In this document: positions 4,071-61,451 of the stretch, piece by piece
How positions within the stretch are numbered: position 1 is the first letter of the stretch
Layout: every line of letters begins with the position of its first letter
Assembly: GCF_014174375.1 (NCBI RefSeq)
Contig: NZ_JABEQE010000020.1
Coordinates: 1-64,000, forward strand
Source: Gluconacetobacter asukensis
Lineage (GTDB): Bacteria > Pseudomonadota > Alphaproteobacteria > Acetobacterales > Acetobacteraceae
DNA: 64,000 nt
Direction of reading: 5' to 3'
The notes under the pieces: model-generated
The model's database searches: none
What the model saw: only the letters and a program-made list of their open reading frames with translations
Told to the model about the DNA's origin: nothing
Translations under genes and position numbers: made by a program

Positions 4071-5495
4071 ATGCAAGAGATTACTCACGTCTACATTGAT
4101 GGCCAGTTCATCGAGCCACATGGAACCGAGCTGTTCGATTTGCACAACCCAACAACCGGGGAAGTATTCGGCCACGTCAGGCTGGGAGATGTGCATGACA
4201 CAAGAGCCGCCATTGCAGCAGCGAAGCGCGCGTTTCCGGAATGGTCGCGAACTACGAAGGCGGAACGCATTTCCCTTCTGCATCGTCTTCACGACGCGAT
4301 GGAGGCCAAGAAAGACGCCCTGCTGGATGCGATCATTCTTGAGTACGGCGCACCGATCTCTCGATCGACCTGGATGGCCGCTTACGCATCAAGTAGCTTC
4401 CTGGATGCAGCGCGTACCCTGGAAGGTTTCGATCTGACTCAACGGATTGGTACCGCGGAACTCATAATGGAGCCCGTCGGCGTGAGCGGGCTGATCACGC
4501 CTTGGAACAGCAATGCCGGCTTCATTTGCAACAAGCTTGCCTATGCGCTGGCCGCTGGATGCACTGCCGTCATTAAGCCTAGCGAGATGAGCGCTGCTCA
4601 AACGCAGGTCGTGCTTGAAGCATTGCATGAGGCAGGCGCGCCTGCCGGCCTGTTCAATATCGTCAATGGACGAGGCGACGTGGTGGGCGCTGAAATCTCC
4701 GCAAATCCTGACATATCAAAAATCTCATTCACCGGCTCCACCGCGGTTGGGAAGTCGATCTTGTGTGCCGCCGCCGACACCCTGAAGCGCGTGACCTTGG
4801 AACTCGGCGGCAAATCGCCCACGGTGATCCTTGACGACGCCGACTTCGCCAAGGCAATTCCGCTGGCGCTTGAGACAGGCTTCGCGAACAGTGGCCAGGC
4901 CTGCATTGCCGGCAGCCGTATCCTCGTCCCTGCCTCGCGGCTTGATGAAGCGCTCGCGGAGACGCAGATCGCCCTTGAAAAAATAAAAGCAGGCAACCCG
5001 CGCGACGCCGGTACGACCATTGGGCCGATGGTAAGTCAGACTCAATACGAGCGGGTCCAGCACTACATTCGGCTCGGCATCGAGGAAGGCGCCACCATCG
5101 TCGCCGGTGGCGAAGGGCACCCCGACGGCCTCGGCGGCTACTTCGTGAGGCCGACAATCTTCGCCAACGTCACCAATGACATGACAATCGCTAGGGAGGA
5201 AATTTTCGGACCGGTGCTGTGCATCCTGACCTATAAGAATGAGGCAGAAGCGATCTCAATCGCCAACGACACGCGCTATGGGTTACAGGCCTATGTCATC
5301 TCCTCCGACCTAGATCGGGCGACGGCAGTAGCCGGCCAGATCCAGGCAGGGCGTATTGTTATCAACGGCGCACCACACGATCCCACCGTACCGTTCGGCG
5401 GGTTCAAACAGTCGGGCATCGGCCGCGAGTACGGCGTCTTTGGACTCCAGGCCTATTTGGAGCCGAAGGCTGTTCTGGGCGCGGCTTCGGCATGA
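4071..5495 (+). CDS. NAD(P)-dependent aldehyde dehydrogenase family protein
   Basis: 474 residues, the usual length for the ALDH superfamily, which oxidises aldehydes to carboxylates in the cytosol. The general base is Glu244 in LELGGKSP and the nucleophile is Cys278 in SGQACIAGSR, 34 residues apart as in characterised ALDHs. The cofactor-binding TPWNSNAG and FTGSTAVGK segments and the C-terminal FGGFKQSGIGRE block are intact. Its stop overlaps the next start (ATGA), so it is translationally coupled to a carboxymuconolactone-decarboxylase-like protein. Likely regulated by the divergent LysR at 3031-3969. Confidence 0.92.
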   Translation: MQEITHVYIDGQFIEPHGTELFDLHNPTTGEVFGHVRLGDVHDTRAAIAAAKRAFPEWSRTTKAERISLLHRLHDAMEAKKDALLDAIILEYGAPISRSTWMAAYASSSFLDAARTLEGFDLTQRIGTAELIMEPVGVSGLITPWNSNAGFICNKLAYALAAGCTAVIKPSEMSAAQTQVVLEALHEAGAPAGLFNIVNGRGDVVGAEISANPDISKISFTGSTAVGKSILCAAADTLKRVTLELGGKSPTVILDDADFAKAIPLALETGFANSGQACIAGSRILVPASRLDEALAETQIALEKIKAGNPRDAGTTIGPMVSQTQYERVQHYIRLGIEEGATIVAGGEGHPDGLGGYFVRPTIFANVTNDMTIAREEIFGPVLCILTYKNEAEAISIANDTRYGLQAYVISSDLDRATAVAGQIQAGRIVINGAPHDPTVPFGGFKQSGIGREYGVFGLQAYLEPKAVLGAASA

Positions 5496-55724: not shown

Positions 55725-57395
55725 GTGAAAGTCGCGCTGTATGCCCGCTACTCATCCGAGAACCAGCGTGATGCCTCGATCGAGGATCAGTTGCGCCTCT
55801 GCCGGCTTCACGCCGAAAAGCAGGGCTGGACGATCGTCGACAGCTACACCGACCGGGCGATCTCGGGTGCCTCCCTGCTCCGCCCCGGCATTCAGGAACT
55901 GATCCAAGATGCCACGCGCGGTCGCTTCACGATCGTGCTGGCCGAGGCCATGGACCGGCTGTCGCGCGACCAGGAAGATATCGCCGGCCTATTCAAGCGG
56001 ATGACCTTCTCCGGCGTGCGGATCATCACCCTCTCCGAGGGCGACGTCACGCACCTGCATATCGGCCTCAAGGGCACGATGAACGCCCTGTTCCTCAAGG
56101 ATCTGGCCGAGAAGGTCCGGCGTGGCCTGCGCGGACGCGTCGAGGACGGCAAGTCCGGCGGCGGCAATTCCTATGGCTATGACGTGGTGCGCCAGTTTGA
56201 CGCCAAGGGTGAGCGCATTCGCGGCGACCGGACCATCAACGAGGAAGAAGCCCGCACGGTCAGACGGATCTTCACCGACTACACGCGCGGCAAGTCCTCG
56301 CGCACGATCGCCATGGAACTGAACCGAGATGGCGTTCCGGGTCCGCAGGGACGTGAATGGGGACCGTCCACCATTCACGGCAATCGGGAACGCGGCACCG
56401 GCGTCCTCAACAACGAAATGTATGTCGGTCGGCTGGTCTGGAACCGGCTGCGCTATCTGAAAGACCCCGATAACGGCAAGCGCGTCTCACGCCTCAATCC
56501 TGAATCCGAATGGGTGATCCAGGAGGTGCCCGAGTTGCGGATCGTCGAGCAGGATCTGTGGGATGCCCTGAAGGCCCGCCAGGCCGAGACGACCTTCAGC
56601 CAGCCGGAACGGGGAAACGAAGCCCTCAGTGAGCGGCGCCGTCCGCGCCATCTCTTTGCCGGGCTAATCCGCTGCGGCTGCTGTGGCGGCGGCTACAGCA
56701 TGATCTCAAAAGATCTGCTGGGCTGCTCGACAGCGCGCAACAAGGGCACCTGTGACAACCGCCTGAACATTCGCCGCGACGCTCTCGAAGCATCAGTGCT
56801 GAGCGGGCTGCGTACGCATTTGATGGAACCGGACCTGTTCAAGGAGTTCTGCAACGAGTTTACCCGCGAGGTGAACAGGCTTCGGATGGAACACGGTGCC
56901 GATCTTGTCGCCATGCGGGCAGAACTGCCCCGCATCGATCGGGAGCTGGCAAAACTTCTAACCGCGCTCAAGGCTGGTGGACCAATCCAGGCAATCGTCG
57001 ACGACATGAAGCGGTTGGAAGCACGCAAGACCGAAGTGACAGAGCGTCTTGCTAATACTGAGGAGCCGCCTCCCCTTCTCCATCCAAACATGGCGGAGAT
57101 TTATCAGCGGCGGATCGCGTCTCTTTATGAGAGCCTTCAGGCCGAAGAGACGAAGACCGAGGCAGCCGAGCGCCTGCGCACACTCGTCTCGCAGATCACG
57201 CTCCAGCCAGCCGACGGCGAGCTGGCGATCATCCTGCGCGGCGACCTGGCGGCAATCCTGCAGTTTGCGGCGCATAAGAAAAACGCCACGGTCCATCCGG
57301 ACAGTGGCGTTCTTGATGCGTTCGTATCGCAAGTATCGTTGGTTGCGGGGGCACGGTCTGGCCGATACCAACACCCCCTTAAAATAGTCATTTAA
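55725..57395 (+). CDS. Large serine recombinase (site-specific integrase type)
   Basis: 556 residues starting with GTG at 55725 (GGGAG upstream). N-terminal resolvase domain with catalytic Ser10/Ser11 in LYARYSSENQ and R residues in AEAMDRLSRDQED; recombinase domain (GGGNSYGYDVV; GPSTIHGNRERGTGVLNNEMYVGRLVWNRLRY); zinc ribbon LIRCGCCGGGYSMIS..GCSTARNKGTCDNR (about 315-348) and a coiled coil (LPRIDRELAKLLTALKAGG). It is the only intact integrase of the large element and lies at its right end, so it is the candidate for integration and excision. Confidence 0.93.
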   Translation: MKVALYARYSSENQRDASIEDQLRLCRLHAEKQGWTIVDSYTDRAISGASLLRPGIQELIQDATRGRFTIVLAEAMDRLSRDQEDIAGLFKRMTFSGVRIITLSEGDVTHLHIGLKGTMNALFLKDLAEKVRRGLRGRVEDGKSGGGNSYGYDVVRQFDAKGERIRGDRTINEEEARTVRRIFTDYTRGKSSRTIAMELNRDGVPGPQGREWGPSTIHGNRERGTGVLNNEMYVGRLVWNRLRYLKDPDNGKRVSRLNPESEWVIQEVPELRIVEQDLWDALKARQAETTFSQPERGNEALSERRRPRHLFAGLIRCGCCGGGYSMISKDLLGCSTARNKGTCDNRLNIRRDALEASVLSGLRTHLMEPDLFKEFCNEFTREVNRLRMEHGADLVAMRAELPRIDRELAKLLTALKAGGPIQAIVDDMKRLEARKTEVTERLANTEEPPPLLHPNMAEIYQRRIASLYESLQAEETKTEAAERLRTLVSQITLQPADGELAIILRGDLAAILQFAAHKKNATVHPDSGVLDAFVSQVSLVAGARSGRYQHPLKIVI

Positions 57396-57412: not shown

Positions 57413-57658
57413 TTAAAGGATGACATACTCCACCCGCTCGAGCGGGAGAAAACGCACACCGTGATCGCCAGCAGGGGAACGCTGACGCAGCCAGCGCCGC
57501 CATTGGTAAAGATGCTGCCGTGTCAGGTCGTGACGGCGGGCCACATCCGATACCGTCGCCCCATCCACCCCAACCTCGGACAGAACCCGCATCTTCTGTT
57601 CATCGGACCAGCGCCGCCGACGCTCCACGCCTATCAGGATCTCCTGCCGCATCCTCAC
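57413..57658 (-). pseudogene. IS66-family TnpA, C-terminally truncated
   Basis: 81 residues: MRQEILIGVERRRRWSDEQKMRVLSEVGVDGATVSDVARRHDLTRQHLYQWRRWLRQ is the IS66 accessory TnpA HTH. The frame stops abruptly after FLPLERVEYVIL, short of the usual 110-130 residues, and no tnpB or tnpC follows. The break lies about 20-35 bases beyond the recombinase stop, so the large element or a deletion ends inside this IS66 gene. Confidence 0.75.
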
Positions 57659-57816: not shown

Positions 57817-57924
57817 ATGGGGACCACTTCAAAGCTGCATGCGAAGATCGGCCAATTGCTGGTGGAACGTGATTTTTTGCGCGATGCCTCTGTTCAGTTG
57901 GGCGTGATCAGAGGCGGCAAATGA
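57817..57924 (+). pseudogene. IS3-family OrfA remnant
   Basis: Open frame TSKLHAKIGQLLVERDFLRDASVQLGVIRGGK followed by a stop, the C-terminal leucine-zipper end of IS3 OrfA. The upstream part of orfA and the left terminal repeat are missing. Its stop overlaps the OrfB start (ATGA), as in intact IS3 elements. The 57659-57816 stretch before it holds no supported gene. Confidence 0.65.
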
Positions 57925-58663
57925 TCGACCTGAAACGGCCTCGGCTTTCGGTCGTGCGGCAATGCACGTTGCTGCAACTCAATCGATCGGGCGTCTACTA
58001 CCGGCCTGTGCCAGAGAGCGAGGCGAATCTGGAACTGATGCGGCTGATCGACGTGCAATTCCTGGAGACACCGTATTACGGGTCCCGTCAGATGACCCGG
58101 CATCTTCGGCGTCTCGGCCACGATATCGGCCGCAAGCGGGCTCGCCGGCTCATGGCGAGAATGGGCTTGCGGGCGGTCTATCAGAAGCCGCGCACGACCG
58201 TGCCACATCCGGAGCATCGGAAATATCCGTATCTGCTGTGGGATCTGGTCATCGACCGGCCCAACCAGGTGTGGTGTTCCGACATCACTTATATCCCGAC
58301 GCGGAAGGGCTTTCTCTATCTGGTGGCGGTGATGGATTGGCACACGCGCAAGGTGCTGTCCTGGCGTCTGTCGAACACGATGGATGCGGAGTTCTGCGTC
58401 GAGGCACTCCGGGATGCCCTGGTGCGCTACGGCACCCCGGAGATTTTCAACACGGACCAGGGTTCACAATTCACGACGCCCCGGTTCACCGAGGTCCTGG
58501 AACGACGCCAGGTTCGCATCAGCATGGATGGGCGCGGTCGCTGGCTGGACAACGTGTTCATCGAACGTCTGTGGCGGTCGTTGAAATACGAATGCGTCTA
58601 TTTGCACGCGTTCGAGACCGGATCGGAGCTACGGGCCGGGCTTGCCGGATGGATCGCCCATTA
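57921..58663 (+). pseudogene. IS3-family OrfB transposase, 5' part (interrupted by a recombinase element)
   Basis: MIDLKRPRLSVVRQCTLLQLNRSGVYYRPVPESEANLELMRLIDVQFLETPYYGSRQMTRHLRRLGHDIGRKRARRLMARMGL, then the DDE core: VWCSDITYIPTRKGFLYLVAVMDWHTRKVLSWRL (Asp) and EIFNTDQGSQFT (Asp), YLHAFETGSELRAGLAGWIAH. The gene breaks exactly at GWIAH; the missing YNEQRPHSAL block is found 2.65 kb downstream at 61314. Two domains of the same gene are therefore separated by an inserted element. Confidence 0.9.
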
Positions 58664-58686
58664 GAACGCTGCTTTGCAAGACCCAT
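58662..58686. other. attL half-site of the recombinase element
   Basis: TA core at 58662-58663, five-base spacer, then arm CTGCTTTGCAAGACCCAT (58669-58686), complementary to the attR arm except at two positions. Confidence 0.8.
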
Positions 58687-58695
58687 AATACCGAC

Positions 58696-59217
58696 GTGCG
58701 GGAAGTTCTCTACCCCTGGCACCCCTGGTTTGGGCGTCGGGTGTGCGTCGAGGAGACGATCGAGCGGGGCGGCCAAGTCCTTTCCCGCTGTCGCCTGTCT
58801 GACACCGGAGGGGTCAGGCTCCTTGAATTGCCTGCATGGATGCTTGATCGCGCAGCGTGCGCCGGGATGCGACAGGCCCCGGATCCGGTCGTGTCACTGA
58901 ATGCATTGCATGATCTGCGATCGTTGCTGACGGGCTTTTTGTCGTCGCACCCATCTGAAACCGTCGCAGGCTTCTCTTCTGACCGGAATCGGAGAGAGGA
59001 CCATGCGACACGACGGACGACAGCGTTCCCGTGTGGGGACCATATCGGCGCAGCCGGATCTGTTCGGCGACAAGAGGGCCGATCCGCCCTGTCCGAACCT
59101 GATCTGGAAAGACCTCCCCCAGCAGGCGCGGAACGATCTGCAGTCGATGATGGCCCGCCTGATCCTCGATCACGTGCGCGGTCGCGGACCCAGCGCCGTG
59201 CAGGAGGCCCGCGATGA
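58696..59217 (+). CDS. Accessory protein of the recombinase element (N-terminal domain clear)
   Basis: From a GTG at 58696: [80 protein letters not shown], a small beta-rich protein found next to recombinases and transposases in alphaproteobacteria; role unknown. The frame stays open to 59217, but its last third overlaps the 59003-59224 ORF and looks like a shadow of it, so the real end is uncertain (possibly about 59000, or frameshifted). Confidence 0.5.
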
Positions 59218-59224
59218 GCCGTGA
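59003..59224 (+). CDS. Small accessory ORF preceding the recombinase
   Basis: 73 residues: ..[43 protein letters not shown]. The PLIWKDLP-type core (WxxLPxxaR...lMArLIldH) is a recurring companion of serine recombinases and IS accessory genes; role unknown. It overlaps the recombinase start by 11 bases. Confidence 0.65.
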
Positions 59225-61286
59225 CAAGATCAGCCCACGTCATCTGGAGCGCAGGGCAATTCTGTATGTGCGGCAATCATCCGCGCACCAGGTGCAGCAC
59301 AACCGGGAAAGCCGCGCCTTGCAATATGCCATGCGCGAACGGCTCGCCCTCCTGGGCTGGCAGACGATTGACGTGATCGACGACGATCTGGGCTGCTCGG
59401 CAGCGGGCGGCGTGACGCGCGTCGGCTTCGATCGCATGGTGGCTGAGGTCTGTTTGGGGCGCGTCGGTGCAGTCGCGGCCCTGGAGGTCTCCCGGTTCGC
59501 CCGGAACAGCCGCGACTGGCAGCAACTCATCGAAATGTGCCGTGTCGTCGACACACTCCTGATCGATCAGGAGGCCATTTACGCACCGCGTGTCGGGAAT
59601 GACCGGCTCCTGCTCGGTCTGAAGGGCAGCCTGAACGAATATGAGCTGGACCTTCTGCGACAGCGGTCCTTGACGGCACGTTATGAGAAAGCGCGGCGTG
59701 GCGAACTCGTGGTGGGTACGCCTGTCGAGTTCGTCAAAGACGGAGATCGTTACGAGAAAGATCCTGACATGCGGGTCCAGAAAGCCATCAGGCTCGTTTT
59801 TGACAAGGTCGCCGAACTCGGCAGCGCACGGCAGGCACTGCTGTGGTTTCACACGCATGACCTGGATCTGCCGGCACGACACCGAAACGGAGGTATTGTC
59901 TGGAGACGGCCAGACTATGCGACTATTCATCGCATGATCGCCAACCCGATCTATGGCGGCGCCTATGCCTATGGCAAGACCGGTGTGGCCGCGTCGTATG
60001 ACGGCAGCGCCTTCAATGCCCAGCGCCAGCGCAAACCACGTGAGAGCTGGCTTGCGCTGATCCCCGGCACGCATGAAGGTTATGTGAGCTGGGACAAGGC
60101 AGAGGCGATCCGCCGCATGGTGAGCGAGAACGTGCCGACCGGACGTCATCATGGCGCGCCCAAACACGGGAGCGCGTTGCTGGCCGGTCTGTTGCGATGT
60201 CACCGGTGCGGACGCAAGCTGGCGGTATGCTACACGGGAGCCAAACATAATATCCCGCGCTACAGCTGTGTGCGCGGCTGGCTCGATAGCGGGGAACCGC
60301 GCTGTATCGCCTTTGGCGGATTGCGGGTCGATGACGCGATCGAGACAGCCCTGCTCGACGTCGTAGGACCGGGTGCGATCGAGGCCGCCGCCACCGCTCA
60401 GGCGACCATCAATGAGCAGCGCGACCAGATACGCGAAGCTCTGGCGCGCGATCTGCAGGCGGCCCGTTACGAGGCTGAACGGGCATTCCGCCAATACAAT
60501 GCGGCCGATCCGGAAAACAGGCTCGTGACCGGAGAACTGGAACGGCGATGGAACGCTGCGCTGACCGCCGCGGCCGCGATCGAGCAGAGGATCGTCGACC
60601 ACGACGCGGCACGAGGACAGGAACCCGCATGCGAACCGCTCTCGTTGCGGGAACTGGCGAACGATCTCAAATCCGTCTGGCAGGCGCCAGCAACGGACGT
60701 CCGTCTGAAAAAGCGGATCGTCCGGACATTGGTGCAGGAGGTTGTTGCCGATCTCGATACCGAAACAGCGGAGATCGTCCTGGCCGTCCATTGGGCAGGG
60801 GGCATCCACACCGAACTACGCCTGCCTCGCCGCCGGCGCGGCCAGCGCAATAGCACCGGCGCCGACATCATCGCGGCCGTGCGTGACCTCGTCCGTATTG
60901 CGAACGATGACCTGATTGCCAGCCTCCTGAACCGCAACGGGCTACGGACTGGGAATGGCAATCGCTGGACGCGTGAGCGTGTGACTTCCATGCGCTCGCA
61001 TCACAGGATCCCAGTTTATCGAGCCACGCCTGATGAAGAAAAGCCATGCCTCAATTTGGGTGAAGCCGCGAAGCTGCTCGGCATAGCCCCTAAAACCTTA
61101 CGGCTTGCCGCCGAGGCCGGAAAGATCGCCGCAACGCACCCATTGCCCGACGGTCCCTGGATATTCGAGCGACATATCCTCGATAGCGACAAAGCGAAGC
61201 TCATCGCCCGCCAGGCAAAAACACGGCGCAGTCAGCTTGCTGGACAAACGCATGCACAAGAAAACTTATTCGAAACAGTCATATAG
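59214..61286 (+). CDS. Large serine recombinase of the inserted element
   Basis: 690 residues. Resolvase domain: [13 protein letters not shown] (catalytic Ser22/Ser23), [32 protein letters not shown] (Arg set); recombinase domain [30 protein letters not shown]; zinc ribbon [26 protein letters not shown] (about 326-364); coiled coil; and a C-terminal MerR-like HTH ([26 protein letters not shown]). Its only recognisable target is the IS3 OrfB sequence around the TA core. It ends five bases before the right arm. Confidence 0.93.
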
Positions 61287-61290
61287 ACAG

Positions 61291-61315
61291 ATGGGTGTTG
61301 CGAAGCAGGATTGTA
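61291..61315. other. attR half-site of the recombinase element
   Basis: Arm ATGGGTGTTGCGAAGCAG (61291-61308), spacer GATTG, TA core at 61314-61315. Directly followed by the restored OrfB codons TAT AAC GAG. Confidence 0.8.
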
Positions 61316-61451
61316 TAACGAGCAGCGTCCGCACTCGGCACTGGCTGGACGCACGCCCGATGAGGCGTATCATGACGTGCCGACGCCATCTGGTCCGGGG
61401 TTAACCCCGGACCAGATGGCCAACAGCAGCGCCGTCAGAATGGCGGCATAA
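61314..61451 (+). pseudogene. IS3-family OrfB transposase, 3' part
   Basis: YNEQRPHSALAGRTPDEAYHDVPTPSGPGLTPDQMANSSAVRMAA then TAA. This is the missing C-terminus of the OrfB at 57921. A perfect 36-bp palindrome (61385-61420) lies within it. The right terminal region of the IS continues to about 61515 (CTGTCCGAATGGACGGG..), where the haemagglutinin-like sequence resumes. Confidence 0.88.

Follow-up and report, generated by a model that had tools for sequence, protein, structure and literature searches.

A small serine-recombinase element inserted at a conserved tyrosine codon of IS3-type transposase genes

The locus and its recombinase

The window, i.e. the whole stretch of 64,000 nucleotides analysed here (Gluconacetobacter asukensis, contig NZ_JABEQE010000020.1, positions 1 to 64,000), carries at 58662–61315 an element of 2,652 bp that encodes a large serine recombinase and splits the OrfB gene of an insertion sequence (IS) of the IS3 family at the Tyr codon of GWIAH/YNEQRPH, the slash marking the cut (Table 1). 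The left edge reads CAT (58659–58661), the core TA, GAACG and CTGCTTTGCAAGACCCAT (58669–58686), and the right edge reads ATGGGTGTTGCGAAGCAG (61291–61308), GATTG, the core TA and TAAC. The two 18-bp arms form an inverted repeat that differs at two positions, each arm being set five bases inside the TA of its edge, and TA is the sole sequence common to both junctions. Once rejoined, the flanks translate as GWIAH/YNEQRPHSAL, in agreement with the original prediction of an element with both half-sites at this position. In the relatives described below, the left half-site reads TACAAC...GAACGCCCAC and the right one is nearly identical, the five bases beside the window core having diverged from this TACAAC. 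Therefore, the TA core, the 18-bp arms and their two mismatches stand as originally described, whereas the supposed 5-base spacer is part of the site and each half-site extends over 25 bp.

Table 1. Positions of the features of the locus in the window and of the domains in its recombinase
Feature	Position	Strand	Basis
Large serine recombinase of 556 amino acids (aa), different from that of the element	55725..57395		
IS-type open reading frame (ORF)	57413..57658	-	
IS3 OrfB, N-terminal part, cut after GWIAH; the junction creates TAG	57921..58664	+	Pfam rve, E 1.2e-25
Left core dinucleotide TA, common to host and element	58662..58663	.	cores match at both ends in 64/65 loci
Left half of attP, 25 bp with the core TA counted (element part of attL)	58662..58686	+	sequence and relatives
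5' ORF, GTG start assumed	58696..59217	+	related sequence upstream of recombinase in 65/65 both-end loci
73-aa ORF, no assigned function	59003..59224	+	match in 59/65 loci
Large serine recombinase, 690 aa	59214..61286	+	Pfam domains, fold and sequence matches
Right half of attP, 25 bp with the core TA counted (element part of attR)	61291..61315	+	sequence and relatives
Right core dinucleotide TA	61314..61315	.	sequence and relatives
IS3 OrfB, C-terminal part, YNEQRPHSALAGRTPDEAYH...	61314..61451	+	continuous in relatives L222–L226
Resolvase domain	residues 15–164 of 690		Pfam
Recombinase domain	residues 189–306 of 690		Pfam
Zinc ribbon	residues 322–372 of 690		Pfam
C-terminal HTH_17/excisionase-like domain	about residues 613–654		below Pfam cut-off in window protein

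The left part of the target IS3 matched 35 plasmid records, 29 of which cover at least 80% of it, and the 15 matches listed all stop at the A of the core dinucleotide (58663), the last base of host sequence. In the five IS relatives that were fetched (L222–L226), the joined window flanks align through an uninterrupted CATTATAAC, apart from one gap due to an extra T in the joined query; all five display the CAT TAT AAC expected of empty copies, and an IS3 transposase is annotated at the empty site in four of them, L224 being without an annotated gene. The target IS3 of the window has probably lost part of its 5' side, since its homology begins at 57831 in all 15 matches listed, about 220 bp inside the coding region of the annotated relatives. 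The closest matches in the element scan and the IS3 search come from Gluconacetobacter, Acidomonas, Acetobacter and Komagataeibacter.

The Resolvase, Recombinase and zinc-ribbon domains of the recombinase were each recognized in all 28 aligned proteins (window included), and HTH_17 in 11 of the 28. Invariant positions of the alignment comprise S22, R20, R94 and R97, among which we presume the catalytic residues to be, and the zinc-ribbon cysteines C329, C332, C352 and C364. The predicted model, whose predicted template modelling score (pTM) is only 0.32, includes two long helices (386–430 and 436–467) forming a helical pair (386–467), a possible coiled-coil insertion. Fold and sequence matches include the SP-beta, phiC31 and LI integrases and TnpX, while the C-terminal domain matches TIGR01764 weakly and has BldC and a mycobacteriophage Xis among its weaker fold matches. 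NCBIfam gave only distant matches for the recombinase (XisF, Ccr and others), all below their own cut-offs, and DUF4368 is absent at E 0.001 from the 28 aligned proteins, including that of the window. The gene is annotated just as 'recombinase family protein' in the two public records that were opened for their neighbourhood. In a tblastn search of plasmids, 531 records match the recombinase; in 348 of these the match spans 80% or more of the query, and most matches show less than 60% identity.

The element carries little besides this gene, the stop codon of which lies four bases upstream of the right half-site. The 5' ORF and the 73-aa ORF of the window have no Pfam match, and no phage or conjugation Pfam domains were found in the three main ORFs of the element. 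DUF5372 (PF17342), which was considered as a name for the 5' ORF, was hit weakly and in one relative only (L203; E 0.0066, 16.9 bits, cut-off 25), the window ORF having no match.

Ends and target codon in relatives

The scan of genome contigs retained 80 of 162 relatives. The 76 loci examined are 74 of these 80 (the remaining six being fragments), the window and L085, which came from a separate search. According to set thresholds, both ends are present in 65 of the 76 loci, in elements of 2.62–2.70 kb, and the other 11 are without an end owing to contig ends, truncation or the threshold; one of these 11, L077, has CA beside both arms. As the relatives with the same ends are mostly at 60–73% protein identity, the ends are not due to chance, and this comparison with homologues, set beforehand as a check on the original prediction, came out in its favour. 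The two cores are TA/TA in 63 of the 65 both-end loci, TG/TG in L054 and AA/AG in L062, whose core is damaged. In L054, the target codon is His (CAC) instead of Tyr (TAC), so that the change in the core is matched by one in the target. The recombinase gene ends near the right end of the element in nearly all elements read.

Flanks of at least 40 bp on both sides allowed 58 of the 65 both-end loci to be joined. A regular expression (Tyr-[Asn/Gln/Ser]-x-x-Arg at the core) matched 47 of them, 43 antisense and 4 sense. By reading, the match of L053 is false, L024 is flanked by a C-half on either side, L051 by a C-half only, and six unmatched loci (L014, L023, L049, L052, L054 and L062) were added by eye as motif variants. 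Globally, regular expression and reading together show, in 50 of the 58 joinable loci, an IS3- or IS481-like transposase with both halves present and meeting at its Tyr-Asn codons. In these 50 full insertions, the element is antisense to the transposase in 48 and sense in two, the window and L013. Four other loci (L024, L046, L051 and L071) are rearranged or one-sided. L071, a close relative of the window element, adjoins an N-half of the IS that is split in the window and is oriented the other way. Some of the loci have an IS half in common and are thus partly non-independent. A Pfam scan of the N-terminal halves (57 flanks, E up to 0.01), from which 11 loci with fewer than 30 open codons were omitted, found rve_3 in 43 and rve in 29. 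The expectation that insertions are always found at GWIAHYN codons therefore holds for the homologous Tyr-Asn codon in most loci but not in its strict form, as the targets include what we take to be several IS3 subgroups and IS481-like genes, and four of the 58 insertions (L010, L018, L053 and L084) are off the motif.

At the DNA level, the attB consensus of the 42 unique antisense sites reads, on the RPH side, TACAAc-N6-CG.CCgCA, i.e. the codons of YN..RPH; all 42 sites match at least four of the six bases of CG.CC.CA and 28 match all six. The off-target sites L010 and L018 also match six of the six motif bases, a score reached by 0.11% of 26,917 background TA sites. A control for wobble positions based on untargeted IS3 comprised eight sites only and was dropped as uninformative. 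By eye, the outer motif appears shifted by roughly 6 bp between attP and attB; a passage of PMC3783163 on the LI integrase gives a P-versus-B shift of the outer motif of 5 bp, the zinc-domain motif lying closer to the core in attB.

Proposed integration at the codon and competing explanations

The exact ends, the common core dinucleotide, the conserved codon, the one-sided target pattern, the near-identical copies and a natural tandem junction are read in the sequence. On this basis, the 2.65-kb element, which here and in most relatives lies at the TA of one Tyr codon in IS3-type YN..RPH, is predicted with high confidence to move as a DNA circle whose 48-bp attP its large serine recombinase would join to that codon. 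Excision by recombination between attL and attR would yield the circular intermediate; the recombinase on the 25-bp attP half-sites would then pair with YN..RPH DNA and exchange strands at the TA, leaving a truncated and presumably inactive transposase. The directionality factor could be the 5' ORF or the C-terminal domain of the recombinase, which, as it resembles excisionase-type proteins, may act as a built-in factor. The elements are likely to spread by using the conserved motif of rival mobile elements as a landing site. This strategy would offer many landing sites and cause little damage to host genes, because many members of an abundant IS family carry the same conserved-motif codons.

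The near-identical copies found at different sites show a recent spread. In the complete genome of Bradyrhizobium barranii 1S5, four copies at different loci show no more than one difference in 2,687 bases, two of these four (L040 and the copy in L170) having the same printed right flank, and two more copies (L017 and L018) are mutually identical. Of this pair, L018 is off target and L017 lies in an IS3 of the same genome, with no difference in 2,687 bp. Five contigs of Rhizobium altiplani (0 differences in 2,624 bp) were first taken as five identical copies and are not relied on: each contig ends at an element end and three left flanks occur, which indicates at least three copies, the identity of which may be an assembly effect. 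In Bradyrhizobium erythrophlei GAS478 (L167, 3385–10770), two IS3-type elements lie head to tail, and a complete 48-bp attP-type junction, made of the right arm of one relative and the left arm of the other, is found at position 5460. Thus the 48-bp near-palindromic site that had been predicted by joining the window ends exists naturally in this form. In addition, the second recombinase of L167, which belongs to the cluster of the window recombinase, is interrupted near residue 137 by an element whose lineage targets recombinase genes and, by reading, the tandem itself lies within an rve-type gene, i.e. there are three nested levels.

It is very unlikely that all these loci derive from one ancestral insertion multiplied by IS3 transposition or by homologous recombination, with no repeated integration. 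About nine loci (L016, L017, L022, L024, L025, L026, L030, L041 and L070), judged by eye, do combine IS3 halves from different subgroups; they indicate later recombination between copies and some rearranged sites, which speaks for such copying and to that extent against repeated integration. However, identical elements occupy an IS3 site and a non-IS3 site of one genome (L017/L018), both orientations occur, and several distinct IS3 subgroups are struck, with matching rather than mosaic halves.

Another explanation, which we consider highly improbable, supposes untargeted insertion, random events surviving solely where they are harmless, as in transposase genes, so that the pattern would reflect selection. 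IS genes are indeed known to be dispensable and abundant in these genomes. However, the insertions are found at one codon (50/58) instead of being scattered over the gene, and two of the four off-target sites keep the DNA motif at the same distance. This motif, together with the exact identity of one of these two elements (L018) with the IS3-sited L017, favours recognition of DNA over selection for harmless places. Finally, that the element is a DDE-type transposon (IS630 or Tc1-mariner-like) duplicating TA and carrying the recombinase as a passenger would fit the TA at both ends and the short inverted repeats but has hardly any probability, as no DDE domain was found by Pfam in the three main ORFs, the TG core and TG target of L054 contradict a TA-specific transposase, the targets have a motif of about 20 bp in common, and the recombinase gene ends near the right end in nearly all elements read.

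Several observations nevertheless weigh against integration by the recombinase at the Tyr codon. The 48-bp sequence obtained by joining the ends of the window element does not occur in its own assembly, even with up to three mismatches allowed, and neither a circle nor a recombination product was seen in that genome. Furthermore, in the closest relatives outside the window genome (L005, L071 and L085; 93–95% protein identity), the recombinase is broken, by an in-frame stop or into two pieces. Besides the existence of four off-motif insertions, two of them (L053 and L084) fit the site less well, with 4 and 2 of 6 bases in the left half and 5 and 3 in the right half, respectively. A scan of the shift between attP and attB gave, for the left arm, a best value of -5 followed by +6 and, for the right arm, no clear peak. 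Finally, the palindromic TA would let a serine integrase insert either way round, whereas 48 of the 50 full insertions are antisense.

Related lineages and known systems

At 60% identity, the 141 full-length recombinases whose contexts are distinct fall into 20 clusters, the window's cluster comprising 79 of them. In a tree of 85 recombinases, namely 23 from this cluster and the 62 that lie outside it, each of the 13 clusters with at least two rows corresponds to one side of a branch, and the 16 target labels carried by 75 rows need 17 changes, the minimum possible being 15. Among the 62 elements that do not belong to the IS3 cluster, reading of the gene beside the right end indicates that 55 adjoin a mobile-element gene (IS21, IS66, IS110, IS91, IS4, IS630, rve, group II intron or recombinase genes), one of the 55 adjoining another element of the same kind. 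Pfam scans of the neighbours, which covered 59 of the 62 (L096, L097 and L119 left out), support a mobile-element neighbour for 35/62, i.e. IstB (10), IS66 transposase (6), Resolvase (6), IS66 TnpB (5), RVT_1 (3), IS91, DDE_Tnp_1, rve and the IS66 leucine zipper (one each), plus IS110 for L089. The tyrosine-recombinase, IS630 and rve (L152, L153) calls, as well as some IstA, IS66 and reverse-transcriptase calls, were made by eye alone. The neighbour of L102 is a non-mobile gene (Helicase_C), and the neighbour genes of L090, L096, L097, L099, L118 and L119 have no assignment.

Pairs of near-identical elements in different sites define the boundaries of the sister elements. Fifteen sister sites were rejoined, 12 of which read as a single gene kind on both sides, cut in a conserved motif; the left side failed to rejoin in L216 and L217, and the N-half is unreadable in L157. 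The reverse transcriptase of group II introns is cut at VVDLDLEKF/FDRVNHD and at LGIP/TVLDR, IstB of IS21 at LLLGP/GVGKTHLA, before GxGKTH, and IS66 at LFAGS/GGAETWA; sister elements also rejoin within the serine recombinase gene of an element of the same group. Many of these sites come from few Bradyrhizobium genomes and are therefore not independent. Related lineages thus appear, by reading, to target likewise IS21 IstB, IS66, IS110, IS91, group II intron reverse transcriptases, tyrosine recombinases and serine recombinases of their own group.

From these data, sampled mostly in Alphaproteobacteria, it seems probable that small serine-recombinase elements form a guild that has become specialised in exploiting other mobile elements. 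The attB of each lineage would be the DNA of a conserved catalytic motif of one kind of mobile-element gene (IS3, IS21, IS66, IS110, IS91, IS4, IS630, group II introns, tyrosine recombinases or serine recombinases of their own kind), and these elements would land in their rivals and break them. The lack of a Pfam transposase domain in several sister flanks (L093, L155, L095, L152, L090, L118, L099 and L156) counts against this proposal. If it is true, these elements would constitute a motif-aimed anti-transposon system that evolved naturally, with parasitism at nested levels. The original observation is confirmed and is larger in scope than was noted.

The enzyme class is well known. Like the large serine integrases (phiC31, SP-beta YokA and LI/A118), the recombinase displays the same domain order, a catalytic-type serine and a zinc ribbon, and its element has a near-palindromic attP of about 50 bp with a 2-bp core. 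In contrast to these integrases, it belongs to an element carrying little else, has an attB placed in the coding sequence for a conserved motif of other mobile elements and includes a C-terminal excisionase-like domain. TnpX and TndX are instances of serine-recombinase transposition in small elements. The catalytic domain of TnpX is a match of the recombinase in the PDB; however, unlike TnpX/TndX and the multi-targeting DUF4368 clade, the recombinase has no DUF4368 match. The half-site of LI measures 25 bp according to the passage already mentioned (PMC3783163). As far as the relevant part of Durrant et al. (PMC10083194) describes them, multi-targeting recombinases either are relaxed or have evolved to use sequences present at several host sites. 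The element follows a motif of about 20 bp, and its multiple targets need not mean relaxed specificity; it would be a specific form of the second type. IS607 also uses a serine recombinase as transposase (PMC4058570 and PMC6188088), but has an N-terminal DNA-binding domain and a tnpB partner, whereas the catalytic domain is N-terminal in the present element, in which no TnpB domain was found. In engineered fusions of an integrase and its recombination directionality factor, the directionality domain is placed at the C-terminus of the recombinase (PMC5737554, in part); the C-terminal domain found here is natural, and its role would be comparable. Among the open-access papers listed by the searches, as far as titles and the openings of abstracts show, no report was found of a recombinase lineage with attachment sites in conserved motifs of the genes of other mobile elements.

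These elements suggest a rule for a transposon that is site-specific and yet abundant: it may aim at the codons of a conserved motif, which a widespread family of other mobile elements is hardly free to alter. The rule predicts attP and attB for a large group and would provide many natural integrases with readable sites. Chimeric IS3 genes and nested insertions may find an explanation here, and it becomes testable whether such elements hold down the IS load.

When genomes across the class were searched with a sister recombinase, few members came up (7/289 at E 1e-60). At the same E value, two Bradyrhizobium genomes contain 31 (G486) and 13 (G485) recombinase matches, several lineages being present side by side. 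In the genome of the window, a second, partial copy of the element (left end, about 233 bp, 90% identity) is found on another contig (C37, L003 position 1501), where its left end sits at the Tyr codon of another IS3, in YNGKRPHSSL (YNGKRPHSSLDARTLNQACFGSK). In the window itself, the different large serine recombinase of Table 1 lies just upstream of the target IS3 and is adjoined by the IS-type ORF.

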